Origin: Melampsora larici-populina 98AG31
Lineage: Eukaryota; Basidiomycota; Pucciniomycetes; Pucciniales; Melampsoraceae
Direction of reading: 5' to 3'
Length of the DNA stretch: 64,000 nucleotides
NCBI RefSeq assembly: GCF_000204055.1
Contig: NW_006768786.1
Coordinates: 980,873-1,044,872 of the forward strand
A program made the position numbers and the translations under genes. Each line of letters begins with the position of its first letter. The stretch's first letter is position 1. Below, piece after piece: positions 478 through 8,189 of the stretch. Under the pieces are notes generated by a model. That model did no database searches and was not told the DNA's origin. It worked only from the letters and a program-made list of their open reading frames with translations.

Positions 478-479
478 TA

Positions 480-565
480 CAGCCGTTCCAAGAATTATCG
501 GCAGATTTTGGGCAAAAGCCTGTAAATTTGGCAAAAACTCAAAAGTCCAAAACCCCAGTTAAAAC
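480..565 (+). repeat. Left 86-bp terminal inverted repeat
   Basis: Identical to the reverse complement of 8102-8187 over all 86 positions. Outside it is TA; inside, the sequences diverge at once. Confidence 0.97.
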
Positions 566-1690
566 TGATTTTCGACCCCAAACTGGGTTCCCAGGCCCCC
601 CCATCTCTCTAAGACCACCATAGCACTCCCTCACGGTAGTCCAAGACTCCTTCAATGCATGCTCGACTAACCTTCTCACGGCCGCATTCTCACGCTTCAG
701 CTTAGGTTCAACTTCGGTCGATCGTGCGTGGGTCCAGGCCTCGAGCCGCCGCCTCACCCCTAACCTGATCATCCAACCAGACCCATTTGTCCTATTCTGA
801 CTTCAAACCTCTTAATTCCTGGACAACTCCTTCTGTTCATCACGTTGATAGGACTTCATCTCAAGGTACGGTGATTATTCCCACTGTTGTTTGAATTGTA
901 TTTGACAAATTCTTAACTGACATTGCATATTTTTCATATTACAAAATTTTGACTGTAGATGCCAAAGTTTCTTCGTGAGAACGACTTTCTTTCCTCATTT
1001 TGTTTGATATAAAGGCCGGTTCATGTTCCGATCAACCTCTCGACCCACTCTGGAATTGATTTTTGGATCACATCCCAGGGAGACTAATTCGATTTTATAT
1101 AATGAAAAAGGTTCCTTTTTGCAGCGTCACTGTGAGATACAGTCTGCACCGAAGTTTCTTTGCAAAGACACCCCAAATTATTCAACAATCACATCATATA
1201 TATACTCTGAAGATTCATTTGGTACCGAAGAATTCTTTTGAAGACCTCCATTTTTCAACACCAATGTAAGTACTAAATCTCAAACACCGAAGATTCTTTG
1301 CAAGAAGACCCCAAAAATTTGATACAATTGCTTTTACTTTTACATACGTCTTTGCGCGGATGCAAAATCTCAACATAGCATAGCAAACAGAACCTCGTTT
1401 TCTTTTGTTTTCTTCCCGGCCGCCCATGTTTCAAATCGTCTATAAATTCGCCCTCATCAAGAGCCAAACGTGATTTTTTCCCCCATCAGCTTATTGATAT
1501 TCGTTGTCAGTGTTATACATAACCAGTTTATCCTCACTCCAATTCCACAAATTTTATTAACTGCTCGCGCAATTAATCTTTAAATTCATGTCTGTCATAT
1601 TGTTCTTTACTTTTTTCTCTTGACTAGTTGGTTTCAGTTGACTGATTTTGTTTCTATCATTCTATCATTCTTTCATTATTTAGAGCAACC
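566..1690. other. 5' leader region of the first cargo gene
   Basis: Inside the transposon, between the left TIR and the first cargo start codon. No conserved coding frame is seen. It presumably holds the promoter; stretches resembling a transcript leader occur from about 1500, but no defined regulatory motif can be claimed. Confidence 0.4.
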
Positions 1691-4247
1691 ATGTCCAACT
1701 CAAACTTGTCAAACTCGAACTGCACTGCTTTGTCCTTCCCTAATGAGGACAAAGTCATAGTGACTGTTGAAGCCAAGGATGCCACTCCTCAACCTGGCTT
1801 GAAAGACAACAGTACGTTAGATTTGCAATCTACTGTTCATACTGTTAAGATACTGACCATGCTTTGGCGTCAGTCATCGAGCCTCCTGCAACTAGCATCA
1901 CGGCGACCGAAGGGCCTGGCCAAGTTGGCTGGATGAATGGTCGTAAGTTCAACCTATATCACTGTTTTGCTTTTATGCAACTCACATTCTTCTCTTGTGG
2001 GTTTAAGTCTTTGAAGCTCCAACTCCTCATCTCACGGGTCCCGATGCCCCTGCTCACCTGGTGGATATGGGGCCCTTGCATAGAGTGGGTACTGCTGACC
2101 GGGATCAATTTGATCGCGCCCACGAGGTAGTGATCCAAGTGTTGTTCAAAATACACACCAAGAACGAGGTGGTAATCACCAATTCGAACGATTCGACCAG
2201 CTCCAGTCAAACGAAGCCTTCGACTGCCCGCCGCTCAGTTGGCACCACTGTCAATGTGATTGACTCCAAGGTATTCAACGATGGGGTTGTCCATGAGTTG
2301 CGTGCTTGTGTAGTTGGTCTCTCCTTGAATCAGTTCAAGGAGAGATGCGCTGAGCTATGTGAACGCTACGCGCCTGGAATGCACCAAATGGTGATCAATT
2401 CGGAAGTTGCGCCGAATCTAACTTGGAAGGCGTCTGTGGGCCGTTCAGCTCCCACCTATGTCCTGGCCGAACCCATTCGGTACTTTGAATTTGTCAATAG
2501 TGTGACTAAATCTCGCACTCGCCGGGCAACTCTCTTGATTCACACCGAATGTTCAAAGGTAGCAGCCAAAAAAAAGGCCCAGGCAAGTGTTTTTGGTTTC
2601 GTTTTGGGTTATCTCAGTGCCCCCTTCTGACTTACTGCCGATTTCCTTCTTAGGCTTCCGCAGCTAAGCAGCTGATTGCTTCTGCAAACGGTCCACAGGT
2701 CTTAGAAGTCGAGCTTGCCCAAGCGAACAAGCGCCTGCAAGTAAGTTATCTTTTGTGGCTCCTCCCTTTGCCCCAACCTGTGTCAACAACGTTGACACTT
2801 TGAATGTGCAATTGTACGTGCAGGCCTCTGAAAAACTTGTGGCTCTGCACAAGTTGACGGCGGAACTTTTCCATTTGCATGCTGAAACTGGTAACGTGGC
2901 GATGGAGTCGTCATGGTGGCGCCTTGGGATCCTAATTTTCACTACCGCTTTACCCTGGCTTGTGCCTTCATTTGGGCGCAAAGCATTGTAAGTCAATTTA
3001 TTTGAATAACTTATAGGTGGTAAGTCTCACTTTAAATTTGGTACCTACAGGAACGATCTGAGGCCACCAAACACATGGCCCCAAATACTAGCAAGTACCG
3101 AACTGAAATTGCGAAGACAAGGATCTTGCATCCAGGTTTAAAGTTGAAGGATTGATTGAAATTACGATTTCCCTTGCCAACGAAGAGAAAGCCATTGGCT
3201 AATGTTAGCGCGGCCAAAAGGCGCCCTTTTGACCACTCACCGGCTCGTCAACGTGGCCAAGGTGGGGTTTTTGGGCCTCAAAAGGGCTCTCCATCTTCCC
3301 ACCGTATTGAGTTGAACAAGTTCAAATCTGGTGAGTTTGAGTTCTTTTTCACGTACTTGTAATTAATCCAGGCAGTTGATTTACTAATGCATCACCTGTT
3401 TTTGCCTTCTGGCCATAGAAGAGAAGATGATCAACTTGGTCTCGTCATCGCCTAATCAAGAGGTGAAACCACTGAGGTTTCAACCACGTAAGTCGTGATT
3501 TTTCTGCAACCTCTTTTGGTCTTTGATTACGTCTGCTTGCTTTCACAGGTGAAAGAAAGCAAGGTTCACCAAGCAAACCTCGTGGCCCCAAGAAGGCGAA
3601 GTTGGAGCCTGGTGAGTCTGGTGGTGACCTCATGGGTGGCCTGTGGCAACGCATTAACCATGGTTGTTTTTTTTGTTTTTCTTTTTCATCCCCAGAATAC
3701 AAGACCGAGATCAATTCCGGTATGTCTAAGTCTTTATTAACGTGCGAGGTCAGAAGTATGTTACTTACCACCTCCTTTCTTTGCAGACGGTTTCCTTCCC
3801 CCCGAGGACAAATTCTATTTTTTGGGGGAAGACGAGGCTGTTTACTCGGATGCTGTAATGTCTAGCGCCGATACCGACGAGCTCGAGCTCTTGCAAGAGC
3901 ACGAGCATCTTCTGGATCAGTTTGTCAAGGAATGTGGGGTGACGAAAGACTTCAACCGCATTCGGAACGTCTTAATCAACTCGGGCATCAAATCCTGGAT
4001 TGACCTGGTGCCAAGTGTGAAGATGACCGAAGCGGTCTTGATTGAGCATGGTGTCCTCCGTGAGGTTGCAACCCGCATGTTGCACAAGGCGGAGGAACGC
4101 AATGTTACTGACAACCAAAGTACGTTCCGCATCTTCAAACATCTTGATCAAAACTTCGCAACATCAAGATGTCCTGATCTCTCGGCGGCTCTGCACATCC
4201 AGAAAACGTGGAATTGGCTAAGTAATTCCAAAACATGCTTTGGATAA
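1691..4247 (+). CDS. Transposon cargo gene: orphan basic protein, 11 exons, about 620 aa
   Basis: I do not recognise this protein. Splicing 1691-1811, 1874-1942, 2008-2582, 2654-2740, 2824-2987, 3051-3135, 3186-3330, 3419-3487, 3549-3611, 3696-3719 and 3787-4247 gives one open frame of 620 aa. The third intron is GC-AG (CAG followed by GCAAGT); retaining it leads to a stop. The N-terminal third is hydrophilic. A hydrophobic WWRLGILIFTTALPWLVP stretch lies near residue 325. The middle is Lys/Arg-rich (KRKP, AAKRRPF, GPKKAK) and could be a nuclear localisation or DNA-binding region. The C-terminus (about residues 500-590) is helical, with a pattern SGIKSWIDL...GVLREVATRML that faintly recalls a SAM-like bundle. 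It lies inside the mariner element, same strand as the pseudokinase. The final exon could contain one more intron after residue ~590. Confidence 0.68.
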
Positions 4248-4558
4248 TCGAATCTTTACTAATCAGTTAAGATTCGAATTCCCCCTCAAACTCAAGCCGG
4301 GCTGTGTCCTATCCTCTTGTTCTTTCCTTTCTTATCGCTTTTTGGTCTTACATCATTCATATATGTTCCTTTTATATGATTTGTTATTTTGTTGTAACCA
4401 TCTTGTCCGAAAGCAGAATCTGAAATAGATATTCAGAATCACCCTGGCCCCAATTGAACTTAGTGCGTACTGTCAAACCGTGTCACCTTACACATTGCCA
4501 ATCAGCCCTCAAGTTATATTTACATTAATGATGATTCACATGATTACGTGATTACCCC

Positions 4559-4835
4559 AAAAAGTTGATCATACATGATCAACCAAATGTCGATCATGTA
4601 TGATCAACTTTTTTTTTAAAATCCCCTATTGATATCTCATTGATATATTATAACTCATATAATATATCAATGAGATATAGTTTCGCAATTTGCATGGCCC
4701 ATGAAAATCGCGAAACTATAGAGAGGTTTCTATGGAGTCATGTCATTGATTTGATGAGATACGCATATCAACATATGCGTTTCTCATGAACTCTGAAATC
4801 ACTTGCTCTTCCTTGATGCGAGAGCATCAAGGAAG
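4559..4835. repeat. Array of five consecutive hairpins between the cargo genes
   Basis: Five unrelated inverted repeats lie head to tail: (1) 4559-4580 with 4592-4613, 22 bp perfect; (2) 4632-4650 with 4660-4678, 19 bp perfect; (3) 4676-4696 with 4700-4720, 21 bp with two mismatches; (4) 4754-4768 with 4773-4787, 15 bp with one mismatch; (5) 4808-4819 with 4824-4835, 12 bp perfect. Loops are 3-11 nt. The array ends about 210 bp before the pseudokinase start codon. Confidence 0.9.
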
Positions 4836-5044
4836 CGCAAGGAACGGGATACATAAGGCCACCCTTGTTCCCAGCTTTCATGTGATGGCCCCAGGTTCCT
4901 CACACACTCCGTCTCCAATCTGATACCTCACAATTGCTCTTTCTTCTAAGATTGTTTCACCATCACTTTAAAACATTTAGAGATTTCTTCGAATAAGTAT
5001 CAACTGTATAGAAAAGGTCATCACTTTCTACTTTAGCATCTGCT

Positions 5045-6060
5045 ATGGACGTTCCAAGCCAGGCAGTTACCAACCCAGGTGCAACGAGTAACAGGAGAAC
5101 AGGGCTGTTGTTCGTTACCACCTGGGAAGAGCTCGGCGAATCGTTTCCGCCTTCGACCGTAATGGCTCACGACTTCGATCAAAGCATACACTTTAGATTT
5201 GCTGGTTATGATCAAATTAGCGAGGCGAGAAGGAAATCTGATGGCCTGGCTGTAGCTATTAGAACTACTGTCTGCAGCCAACATTCTCAATCCACCGTAC
5301 GCGTATTGAAAGATTTAATCAATATATTACCTCGGCTCAATCACCCTGCCATTGCTACATTTCTTGGTCACATGGTTGACCCAAGTCAACTCCACTTTGT
5401 CTTCAACTATGATCCTCTGATCACATCAATTGAGGCGCTGATTCTCACGAAGGACTTCGCTGAAGACGAGATTGGCCACTATGGCGCCCAGCTTGCCGGC
5501 GCCTTGGATTACCTACACGCCCAAAAATCCGTTGTTCGAATCCTGGACCCTTTCGGCATTCTCTTGATGCCAGGATCAATCATCAAACTTGTTGACTTTC
5601 CTGCCATGGCCATACTGGGTGCCAACGGCCTGACTTCCGGGAATTATCGCCCAAGTGAGGAACAGGCCCCCGAGGCGCTAGAAGGCCGTGAATATGGTAC
5701 ATCTGTGGATTGGTGGGCATTAGGAGTGATAATGTATTACTTGAGCACAAAGGATAAACCGTTTATGATCAGTATGTTTCAGCCTCAACTTCGTAAAATA
5801 TATATTTGCAACATGGCTAAACCTTGGATTTACGTACATTTGTAGGCTCACGTTGTCTTCCGGCATGGTTCCCCAACCCAATACTCACACGAAGTGTGCT
5901 TTTGCCATCACACATGTCCGAAGGCATGCAACAAGTGATCAAACAACTACTCAATAAAGAACCAACCAAGCGCATATCATCTGAGGTTGAACTCAGAAAC
6001 CTTCCGTTTTATTCAAATGTATGGCCTCCAAGACCTTCCAACAATTCATTTGTAAACTGA
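5045..6060 (+). CDS. Transposon cargo gene: AGC-type protein pseudokinase, 313 aa
   Basis: Two exons, 5045-5771 and 5846-6060, split by a GT-AG intron. The fold signature of an AGC serine/threonine kinase is clear: LPRLNHPAI before subdomain IV, LAGALDYLHAQ (subdomain VIa), an APE motif (QAPEALEGREYGTSVDWWALG) and the C-lobe LLNKEPTKRIS...LPFY. Catalytic residues are gone: the VAIK lysine is Arg (AVAIR), the catalytic loop reads VVRILDPFGILL, so the HRD-type Asp is Ile and the metal-binding Asn is Gly, and DFG reads DFP. The Gly-rich loop is not recognisable. It is therefore probably catalytically dead and could act as a decoy, scaffold or inhibitor of a cellular AGC kinase; that is inference. 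No signal peptide. The frame is intact, so decay from neglect is less likely than selection or recent capture. Confidence 0.85.
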
Positions 6061-6408
6061 GTAGACGTCACGCGGGTTAGGCATGTTATTTTACTTTAAA
6101 ACCAACCAAATACACGATTTTATGTATCTTTCTGGTCTCTTTCTGGTCTCGTTCTTTGGAAATCTTTTTGTTTGAAGACTTCAGATGACTTGAGTTTGTT
6201 TTAAATCTTTTTGGACCTAAATTTTGTTATTTTTCCCTCCTCATATATTGTGGAAGAAATATTCTTCTGTGAAGATTTATCAAAAAGTCCGCATGTACTC
6301 AAAGTAAAGTTGGTTTTGCTTATACTTTGTGGTTGGTCTCAAATACTCTCATAAAAACCAATGGCACAAGTGTGTAGATAAGGTAATTTATTCCTTGGCA
6401 TACCATAC

Positions 6409-6549
6409 AAAAAAACAAAGACTAAACTCAAAAACATAAGTGAGAGCAGGCACGACCAAAGCAAAAAAGAACATCAAAAAAAACAAAGACTAAAATCAAA
6501 AACATAAGTGAGAGCAGGCACGACCAAAGCAAAAAAGAACATCAAAAAG
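6409..6549 (+). repeat. Two-copy 68-bp tandem duplication
   Basis: Two A-rich copies, the second starting 68 bp after the first, with one substitution (ACTAAACTC versus ACTAAAATC at 6421 and 6489). It lies between the convergent 3' ends of the pseudokinase and the transposase, where a terminator would be expected. Confidence 0.85.
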
Positions 6550-6620
6550 GTAAAGAAGATGGTTGACTTGTTTAATTATTTGGTGTGACTACACACATCT
6601 AAAGATAAGATCTCCAAAGC

Positions 6621-7730
6621 TCATAAATAACTGCACCCTCTAAAGAGAGACTCGCATAAGTCCGCAGTGAATAACTGCATACAAGTGACAAAAATCCTGG
6701 CCTCTTCTTCTTCGGCATTCAAACAATTTTGCATTTCTTGAGTTCTTCGTAATCTTGCCTTCATTGGGGAAAACCCCTTTTCGATTGGGTTGAAGTCGGG
6801 GCTGTAAGCTGGAAGGTATATAAGGCACACTCCACGGGCAGCGCAAAGGGCTGCCACGTTCCCCCCGTGATGAATCGGAGCATTATCCATCACTAGTACA
6901 CTATTTCTTTGAGGCCATGGGTTCATCGCCGGTAACTGCAAGAGTGAGCATTAGCAATGTACTAATCAATAATCGACAGAAAAAACCATTTACCAAATGA
7001 TTTTCTAAAAAATCCTCAAAATCCAGTCGGGAGTAACCACCCTTCCTGATTTGAACCGCGAGGATGCCATCCAGTGATATAGCCGGCAATACAGACCATC
7101 GGCTAGCTCGAGTTGGCCTTTGAAGTCTGGCTGTCCGTTCACCCACAGGAGCTCGAGCAAAGTCGCGATAAAGCCTTCGCTTGCTCAGAGCAGTTTTGTC
7201 TATAATCAAAGTGACAGAGAGTCAGAATAAAGAAATGAATACTTAAAGAAATCCATTAGAGGCTCACCTGTGAATACCAAGCACCGAGGGTCAATGTTGT
7301 GAACAGCCGCAATGTAGGCACCTCGGGCCTCGGCAGACTGATTTGGATTCACAGTTTGAGCCTTTTTTCGAGTCCAGAGAAGGCGGTCGCGGAGCTCACT
7401 GGAAAGGGTCTGTATAGAGACTCGAACCCCATGAGTATCTTGAATCCTTTCTTGAAGCTCGTCAAGGTACAGTGTCGGATCATGACGAAGCGATTCCAGG
7501 ACGAATTCGCGTTCGGCCGCGCCTAAGGAGGTTGGTTGACCACGGCGCATGTGGTCAAGTGGATTGGTCACCACTGCACGAGTCGTTCGGTAGAGGTTAA
7601 ACCATCGCCGGACTGATGTGAGGGACACATCCACTCCAAGAGTTCGGACAATATCTTGGAACCGCAGCCCACGTAAGACCAATCGAACCACCACGACCTT
7701 GATATCAGCGCTGTAAAGAGTGACCGGCAT
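6621..7730 (-). CDS. Tc1/mariner-family DD34E transposase, 327 aa
   Basis: Exons in minus order are 7730-7268, 7199-6994 and 6935-6621, joined by GT-AG introns into 327 aa. The N-terminus has paired helix-turn-helix features typical of the family (DIKVVVVRLVLRGLRFQDIV, then RRGQPTSLGAAERE). The DDE triad can be followed: first Asp in LVFTDKTAL, second Asp in VLVMDNAPIHHGG, and the Glu in SPDFNPIEKGF with 34 residues between the second Asp and the Glu. The usual Glu after the first Asp is Lys here, which is a variation. It is convergent with the two cargo genes and should cut and paste the element at TA by binding the 86-bp TIRs. Confidence 0.92.
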
Positions 7731-8101
7731 CCCTAAAAGGAGATACGCTGAGTGTGAGTGATTGTATGAGTCAGAGGCAAGAACAAGAGACAGAAAGGAC
7801 TGACTCTTGAGTGAGCAATGAGGGGAAAAGGTTTGAAAAAGCTTTGATTGAAGTGTTTGATGCTGGAAGGATATGATGACGTTCGATTTGAGGGAAAAAG
7901 GAATTCGACAATTGGAAAGGGGGGAATCGGAAGGATGGCATTTGATAGAAAAAAGGAAAAAAAAACTAAAAAAACATCCGCTTCAATCAGAGAAACCTCG
8001 TGACGACCTCGGGATGGGATACTATGGATATCCCAAGAGAACTGTCAAGGAAAAATGACATTCTCTCACCAAATACGTCAAGACCAGACTTTAAGAAAAA
8101 C

Positions 8102-8187
8102 GTTTTAACTGGGGTTTTGGACTTTTGAGTTTTTGCCAAATTTACAGGCTTTTGCCCAAAATCTGCCGATAATTCTTGGAACGGCTG
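8102..8187 (-). repeat. Right 86-bp terminal inverted repeat
   Basis: Exact inverted copy of 480-565, followed by the TA target duplication at 8188-8189. Confidence 0.97.
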
Positions 8188-8189
8188 TA

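Follow-up and report, generated by a model that had tools for sequence, protein, structure and literature searches.

Evidence for a two-gene Tc1/mariner lineage in Melampsora larici-populina, with a pseudokinase gene in one copy

Tc1/mariner elements are textbook one-gene transposons, and several of them serve as gene-delivery tools since the transposase suffices. An element of this type in Melampsora larici-populina holds more than a transposase. It spans 7,708 bp (positions 480-8187) of a 64,000-nucleotide stretch, C22:980873-1044872, which is referred to below as the window. An earlier note on this DNA had presented it as a giant transposon carrying host genes as cargo. We consider it likely that the element belongs to a Tc1/mariner lineage of Melampsora with two genes, in which the transposase is accompanied by an accessory gene (gene 1), and that a pseudokinase gene was captured later by this copy. 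What is both new and conserved is the orphan partner gene of a large lineage, not the pseudokinase. All genome searches used the assembly of M. larici-populina 98AG31 (98.3 Mb in 243 contigs), the contigs of which are labelled C7, C129 and so on.

Linkage of gene 1 to the transposase

The window element belongs to the IS630-Tc1-mariner superfamily: it is flanked by a TA duplication, bounded by terminal inverted repeats (TIRs) and encodes a transposase with a helix-turn-helix (HTH) region, a DDE_3-type domain and the catalytic triad. Its main features are the following.

478..479, no strand: TA target-site duplication, left (sequence read)
480..565, plus strand: left TIR, 86 bp, same letters as the right TIR (repeat comparison)
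1691..4140 (approximate), plus strand: gene 1, the family-wide multi-exon accessory gene, broken here (translated comparison with other copies)
2007-2582, 2648-2743, 2818-3002, 3048-3173 and 3783-4127, plus strand: conserved blocks of gene 1 (ATG read at 1691)
5045..6059, plus strand: pseudokinase gene, putative passenger of the window copy alone, exon blocks at about 5045-5770 and 5847-6059 (Pfam, translated comparison)
6621..7730, minus strand: DD34E transposase, intact, 327 aa, three exons (7730-7268, 7199-6994, 6935-6621)
8102..8187, minus strand: right TIR, 86 bp (repeat comparison)
8188..8189, no strand: TA target-site duplication, right (sequence read)

The identical 86-bp TIRs, the TA duplications and the DD34E transposase had been recognized in the earlier note, and all were recovered at these positions. 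The two arms show no difference over 86 bp and lie within a longer inverted repeat that is 97.9% identical over 94 bp. In the transposase, 34 residues separate the second D from the E; Pfam places HTH_33 above the cut-off and HTH_32 just under it, with DDE_3 above the cut-off for one piece, and a PDB search gave a weak match to Sleeping Beauty (E 0.0067). The element does not conform to the single-gene plan of a transposase alone.

Gene 1 is a property of the element family, not of the window copy. A protein search of the genome with its main exon (2007-2582) yielded 107 matches that merge into 101 loci, and its C-terminal exon gave 90 matches. Transposases were counted among the best 150 of 409 candidate matches to the window transposase exon, and on this basis 79 of the 101 gene-1 loci have a convergent transposase downstream at a distance of no more than 15 kb (65 of them no more than 5 kb). 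Other arrangements are confined to two divergent pairs, with no tandem transposase either downstream or upstream, and the order main exon, C-terminal exon, transposase is kept at 73 loci. When the transposases are divided by their identity to that of the window, gene 1 accompanies 79 of the 93 that are at least 53% identical and none of the 57 below that value. The two genes have also diverged together, in that the identity of gene 1 to the window copy and that of its partner transposase are correlated over the 79 pairs (Spearman 0.53). In translated comparisons the blocks of window positions 1651-4127 recur in the C7 and C129 copies with their order kept (35-89% amino acid identity per block), and a C-terminal piece of gene 1 is found in a C51 copy.

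The pair is also bounded by the ends of an element. TA-flanked TIRs surround seven two-gene copies, namely those of the window, C7, C129, C53, C2:2345134-2350809, C11:356588-362798 and C2:1630878-1636451, the smallest of which measures about 5.6 kb. The search of the same genome with the TIR, as the earlier note had proposed, gave 13 matches to the first 141 bases of the element. Among the TIR-bounded copies that were inspected or placed, C7, C129, C53, C2 (twice) and C11 share with the window copy the order of gene 1 and transposase. The TIR-end pattern (TA plus 25 bases, 27 bases in all, with up to three mismatches) occurs 42 times in the genome; chance is excluded as the source of these ends, because the reversed pattern used as a control matched nowhere. 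With the corresponding pattern of a more distant C2 copy there were 13 matches, and none in its control; three of the resulting pairs enclose two-gene copies. Two-gene relatives that are free of large inserts measure 5.57, 5.68 and 6.21 kb against 7.7 kb for the window element, and the description of the latter as giant was rejected.

A different origin of the pairing would be that gene 1 is a separate selfish or host gene, picked up repeatedly by Tc1/mariner elements. This would fit the 22 of 101 loci at which gene 1 stands alone, with no such transposase match within 15 kb; set against the fixed orientation and order at 79 loci, the sharp identity boundary and the co-divergence with the transposase, it appears highly improbable. 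These 22 loci nevertheless count against the two-gene lineage, as do several further observations. Gene 1 is missing beside 14 of the 93 close transposases (the truncated C57 end and a C17 deletion copy are among the 14), and TIRs have been verified for seven two-gene copies only. The distant 14.6-kb copy at C51:182861-197418, with 73% TIR identity at one end, would be an eighth, but its right flank has no clear TA. The window copy of gene 1 is itself broken, intact copies lying elsewhere in the genome, and gene 1 gave no significant match in Pfam (E up to 10) or PDB; the selection acting on it could in part reflect use in trans or a role in the host. At C7:421547, the single less similar transposase locus that served as an outgroup, the best gene-1 match reached just E 0.009, which is not a clear one, and TIRs were not recognised. 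Decay and nested insertions account for some of the loci that lack one partner, as was seen for part of them, and a gene-1 copy too divergent for detection could hide near the less similar transposases.

Structure and constraint of gene 1

The intact form of gene 1 was modelled on the copy at C2:2345134-2350809, a 5,676-bp element flanked by TA at either end, in which the gene is open over seven exons and 518 codons with GT-AG splicing. In the window copy the frame changes near 2893-2898, where the C7, C129 and C53 copies keep one frame, and an in-frame stop follows at about 3153, in the next exon after the frame change. The earlier note had counted two intact multi-exon genes besides the transposase; this fails for gene 1, which is frame-shifted and prematurely stopped, and the frame of the pseudokinase gene is open.

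Both genes of the pair are under purifying selection. For the gene 1 main exon, dN/dS is 0.07 (window-C7), 0.13 (window-C129), 0.20 (C7-C129) and 0.14 (C7-C53), these being the four of ten pairs that could be measured, since the other six are saturated at synonymous sites; for the transposase exon it is 0.06-0.12 in 13 of 15 pairs. A low dN/dS is silent on whom the gene 1 protein serves, and the gene might be kept for the host, as a domesticated gene or beneficial passenger, and not for transposition. Related proteins are indeed annotated as genes in Melampsora americana and M. larici-populina. The copies number roughly one hundred, are divergent and in many cases contain stops or broken frames, so that they look like a transposon and unlike a host family that is kept, and retention for the host is accordingly rated as very unlikely.

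How would such a lineage work? In the two-gene reading, TA-flanked inverted repeats enclose two converging genes, one for a DD34E transposase and the other gene 1, a multi-exon orphan of about 500 codons, and the element would move by cut-and-paste through the transposase that it encodes. The gene 1 protein would be needed by the element itself, in transposition or against silencing, because a useless passenger would decay while the copies diverged to synonymous saturation. It would most likely be an accessory factor that acts with the transposase, on the element ends or on the chromatin state of the element. The window copy, with its intact transposase and perfect ends, could at most move with gene 1 protein from other copies, if that protein is needed at all. 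The stronger proposal, that transposition (or escape from silencing) depends on gene 1 as an indispensable second component, which would make a new two-component Tc1/mariner machine with an orphan protein that resembles no accessory factor described for transposons and has spread to about a hundred divergent loci in this genome, is put forward tentatively, as possible but not the likelier outcome.

Relatives of the gene 1 protein appear to be confined to the genus. Protein database searches, in which 7,999 candidates were scored, gave 20 relatives, 19 of them named and all from M. americana or M. larici-populina, with one unnamed; a profile search beyond Melampsora added nothing (17 proteins, of which the 16 named are all from Melampsora and one is unnamed). 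Family members that Melampsora annotations now list as hypothetical proteins probably belong to transposons. With Pfam opened to E values up to 1, the matches of gene 1 and 18 relatives were all weak, with FIVAR in 6 of the 19 sequences (best E 0.0096), Haemadin in four and other families once each, and there was none to Fanzor/TnpB; a PDB profile search with gene 1 returned two non-significant matches (E 0.75 and 0.97). SUMO-type motifs number 23 in the gene-1 proteins against 13 expected, with a maximum of 24 in 1000 shuffles, in sequences that are related to each other.

The pseudokinase gene and its slot

The gene at 5045-6059 has an open frame, one intron and a Pfam Pkinase match. Compared with Aurora A, it has Arg for the VAIK lysine, Ile for the HRD aspartate and Pro for the DFG glycine, so that by these three marks of an active kinase its product reads as a pseudokinase. 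Among the 40 kinase-like matches in the genome it is the only one inside an element. A C9 match that is 28% identical lies about 9 kb 5' of a gene-1 locus, and within 20 kb of the two relatives that rank closest among those visible (62% and 58% identity) neither gene 1 nor the transposase gave a match. The six closest relatives (on C59, C67, C8, C3, C69 and C63, 62% to 36% identical) likewise have no standard HRD-type loop where this can be read, and because of this the window gene is placed in a small pseudokinase family. Between the window gene and its C59 and C67 relatives, dN/dS is 0.34-0.45.

No other inspected copy carries this gene. It is absent from translated comparisons with the C7, C129, C11, C51 and C53 copies and with the C65 and C57 stretches, and the C17 copy matches just a 17-residue piece on the opposite strand. 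Similarity at the DNA level to C59 and C67 extends over 4743-4806, upstream of the gene, and over about 5115-6061, which includes both exons. Because the intron is kept, the gene was evidently copied as DNA. On present evidence the pseudokinase would be a one-off DNA-level capture and a passenger of a single copy. A host gene with its upstream region and intron may have been copied into the spacer later, for instance during gap repair. The capture of a gene by a Tc1-like element of a fungus is said to have a possible precedent in Ant1 of Aspergillus niger. The ends of the insert could not be mapped against the spacers of C129, C7 and C2, because these are not alignable.

The pseudokinase stands in the slot that separates gene 1 from the transposase, and this slot could be regarded as a cargo bay and the element as a vehicle for host genes, the pseudokinase included. 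The distance from the C-terminal exon to the transposase exon is variable: it is 1.26-2.33 kb in 57 of the 73 ordered copies and longer in 16, one of which is the window copy (3.02 kb). The slot of the C53 copy holds other gene-like ORFs (open reading frames) on the minus strand (L055 5845-6842) with relatives at a few further places in the genome (C29, C19, C5, C27 and C7), and a protein annotated for M. larici-populina, MELLADRAFT_90812, is 94% identical to the pseudokinase. Its contig has the length of C3, and the locus was missed by both the protein and the DNA searches of the assembly; this gene could represent either the source of the capture or another carried copy. Against such a cargo system, no two pseudokinase-bearing elements were found, three enlarged copies (C7, C129 and C14) are at least partly swollen by nested transposons, the weaker C51 copy contains Gypsy-type genes, and the C53 ORFs have no significant Pfam family and may be another repeat. 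A cargo system is rated as very unlikely.

The slot is thus a site that tolerates insertions, mostly of other transposons. The C7 copy contains a nested Copia-type pol (RVT_2), and the slot of the C14 copy holds a 1.6-kb element (L056 888-2514) whose 52-bp TIRs are perfect and which contains an ORF of 282 aa; this ORF has no Pfam match and includes a stretch that we take to be AT-hook-like. In the C129 copy a phage-integrase-type recombinase gene lies in an insert on the other side of the transposase, not in the slot. Adjoining this gene in the nested element (L013 5070-8039) is a large ORF that has no Pfam match, and we presume that the element may be a DIRS-like retroelement.

The earlier note's claim that a Tc1/mariner element here holds more than its transposase therefore stands for gene 1, which is kept across copies, and falls for the pseudokinase, which is not a conserved part. 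Seen in no other inspected copy, and with its two nearest visible relatives outside the family's elements, the latter is a chance capture by the rule that the note itself had set, and the proposed mobilization of the gene found no support.

Two minor features lie in the spacers of the window element.

4559-4613, 4632-4678, 4676-4720 and 4802-4841, no strand: four short inverted repeats, 5' of the pseudokinase gene (repeat scan)
6404..6539, no strand: 68-bp tandem duplication, 96% identical, in the spacer ahead of the transposase 3' end (repeat scan)

The first of these is the hairpin array that had been reported earlier (4559-4841), consisting of four nearly perfect short hairpins in a row; a DNA search of the region against the genome found no second copy.

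Known systems and further copies in the genome

Tc1/mariner elements with several genes or with cargo are already known, in the form of TBE, Tec, Fanzor-bearing mariners and ToxTA. According to the available part of PMC4724952, the TBE elements of Oxytricha carry genes of 22 kD and 57 kD, the latter a zinc finger and kinase gene; they have TIRs of about 80 bp and a DD34E transposase (available part of PMC7325037). They resemble the rust lineage in having an extra gene conserved throughout the family, here gene 1, a likeness of gene content; they differ in residing in a ciliate germline with three ORFs (same parts of PMC4724952 and PMC7325037), whereas the rust family has two genes and a kinase-like gene in one copy. 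The Tec elements of Euplotes are likewise multi-gene and DD34E, but their TIRs of about 700 bp and their site-specific recombinase gene, as given in the available part of PMC7325037, are not seen in the rust element. Some mariners (PMC3627910, available part) contain genes for Fanzor1, an endonuclease or a methyltransferase; they too are TA-flanked and combine a transposase with further genes that vary among relatives, but gene 1 matches neither Fanzor/TnpB nor any other Pfam family significantly. ToxTA, formerly ToxhAT, is again an element of a fungal plant pathogen with TA duplications and cargo, with 74-bp TIRs and a size of 14 kb; it is described in the accessible text of PMC12506042 as non-autonomous and nested in Starships, whereas the rust element encodes an intact transposase itself, besides the second gene found throughout its family.

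The likeness to Starships and Polintons that the earlier note drew did not hold up. Starships have a tyrosine-recombinase captain, and Polinton/Maverick elements a protein-primed DNA polymerase and a retroviral-type integrase; the eight window ORFs scanned, which make up part of the ORFs of the element, gave no integrase-type Pfam match and none to the Polinton gene set. The word mariner does not occur in a review of giant transposons (PMC6431247). A 2025 survey of rust transposons (PMC12210899) reports a TIR-Tc1Mariner family retained within Melampsoraceae, which shares superfamily and host family with the window element, and its available part does not describe a second gene. Literature searches, judged by titles or the start of abstracts, turned up no paper on a two-gene Tc1/mariner of Melampsora. 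A large fungal lineage whose second gene has stayed under purifying selection despite deep divergence is a natural setting in which to ask how a mariner could benefit from an accessory protein. The window copy in turn would illustrate how such an element acquires a whole host gene, intron included, and how readily a passenger of one copy can pass for conserved cargo.

The family extends beyond the two-gene copies with verified ends. Among the matches to the first 141 bases, TA is present on both sides of the window element and of the C7 (15.1 kb), C129 (13.4 kb), C17 (3.9 kb) and C11 (2.1 kb) copies, and C65 and C57 are single TIR ends or partial copies, the C57 end following the window sequence for 1,159 bp at 98.3% identity before it breaks off. 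The transposase of the C129 copy has Lys at the position of the expected catalytic Glu and, judged by this residue, the copy is probably inactive. The right flank of the window element, used in search of an empty site, had a single match in the assembly, the flank itself. Near-identical scores and spacings across contigs link C22:345307 with C33:243408 and, in a second set, C4:1392888, C14:1549563, C21:1215144 and C50:510826, which suggests recent multiplication of two-gene units, some of which could be alleles.

The 42 matches to the TIR-end pattern form 18 pairs. Six are larger and correspond to C11, C17, C51:552543 (6.9 kb), the window, C53 (10.2 kb) and C7. The other 12, of 220-225 bp, constitute a family of miniature inverted-repeat transposable elements (for example C14:653454-653682, C2:1762234-1762462 and C19:1014916-1015144), which, with ends like those of the window element, were probably moved by this transposase lineage.

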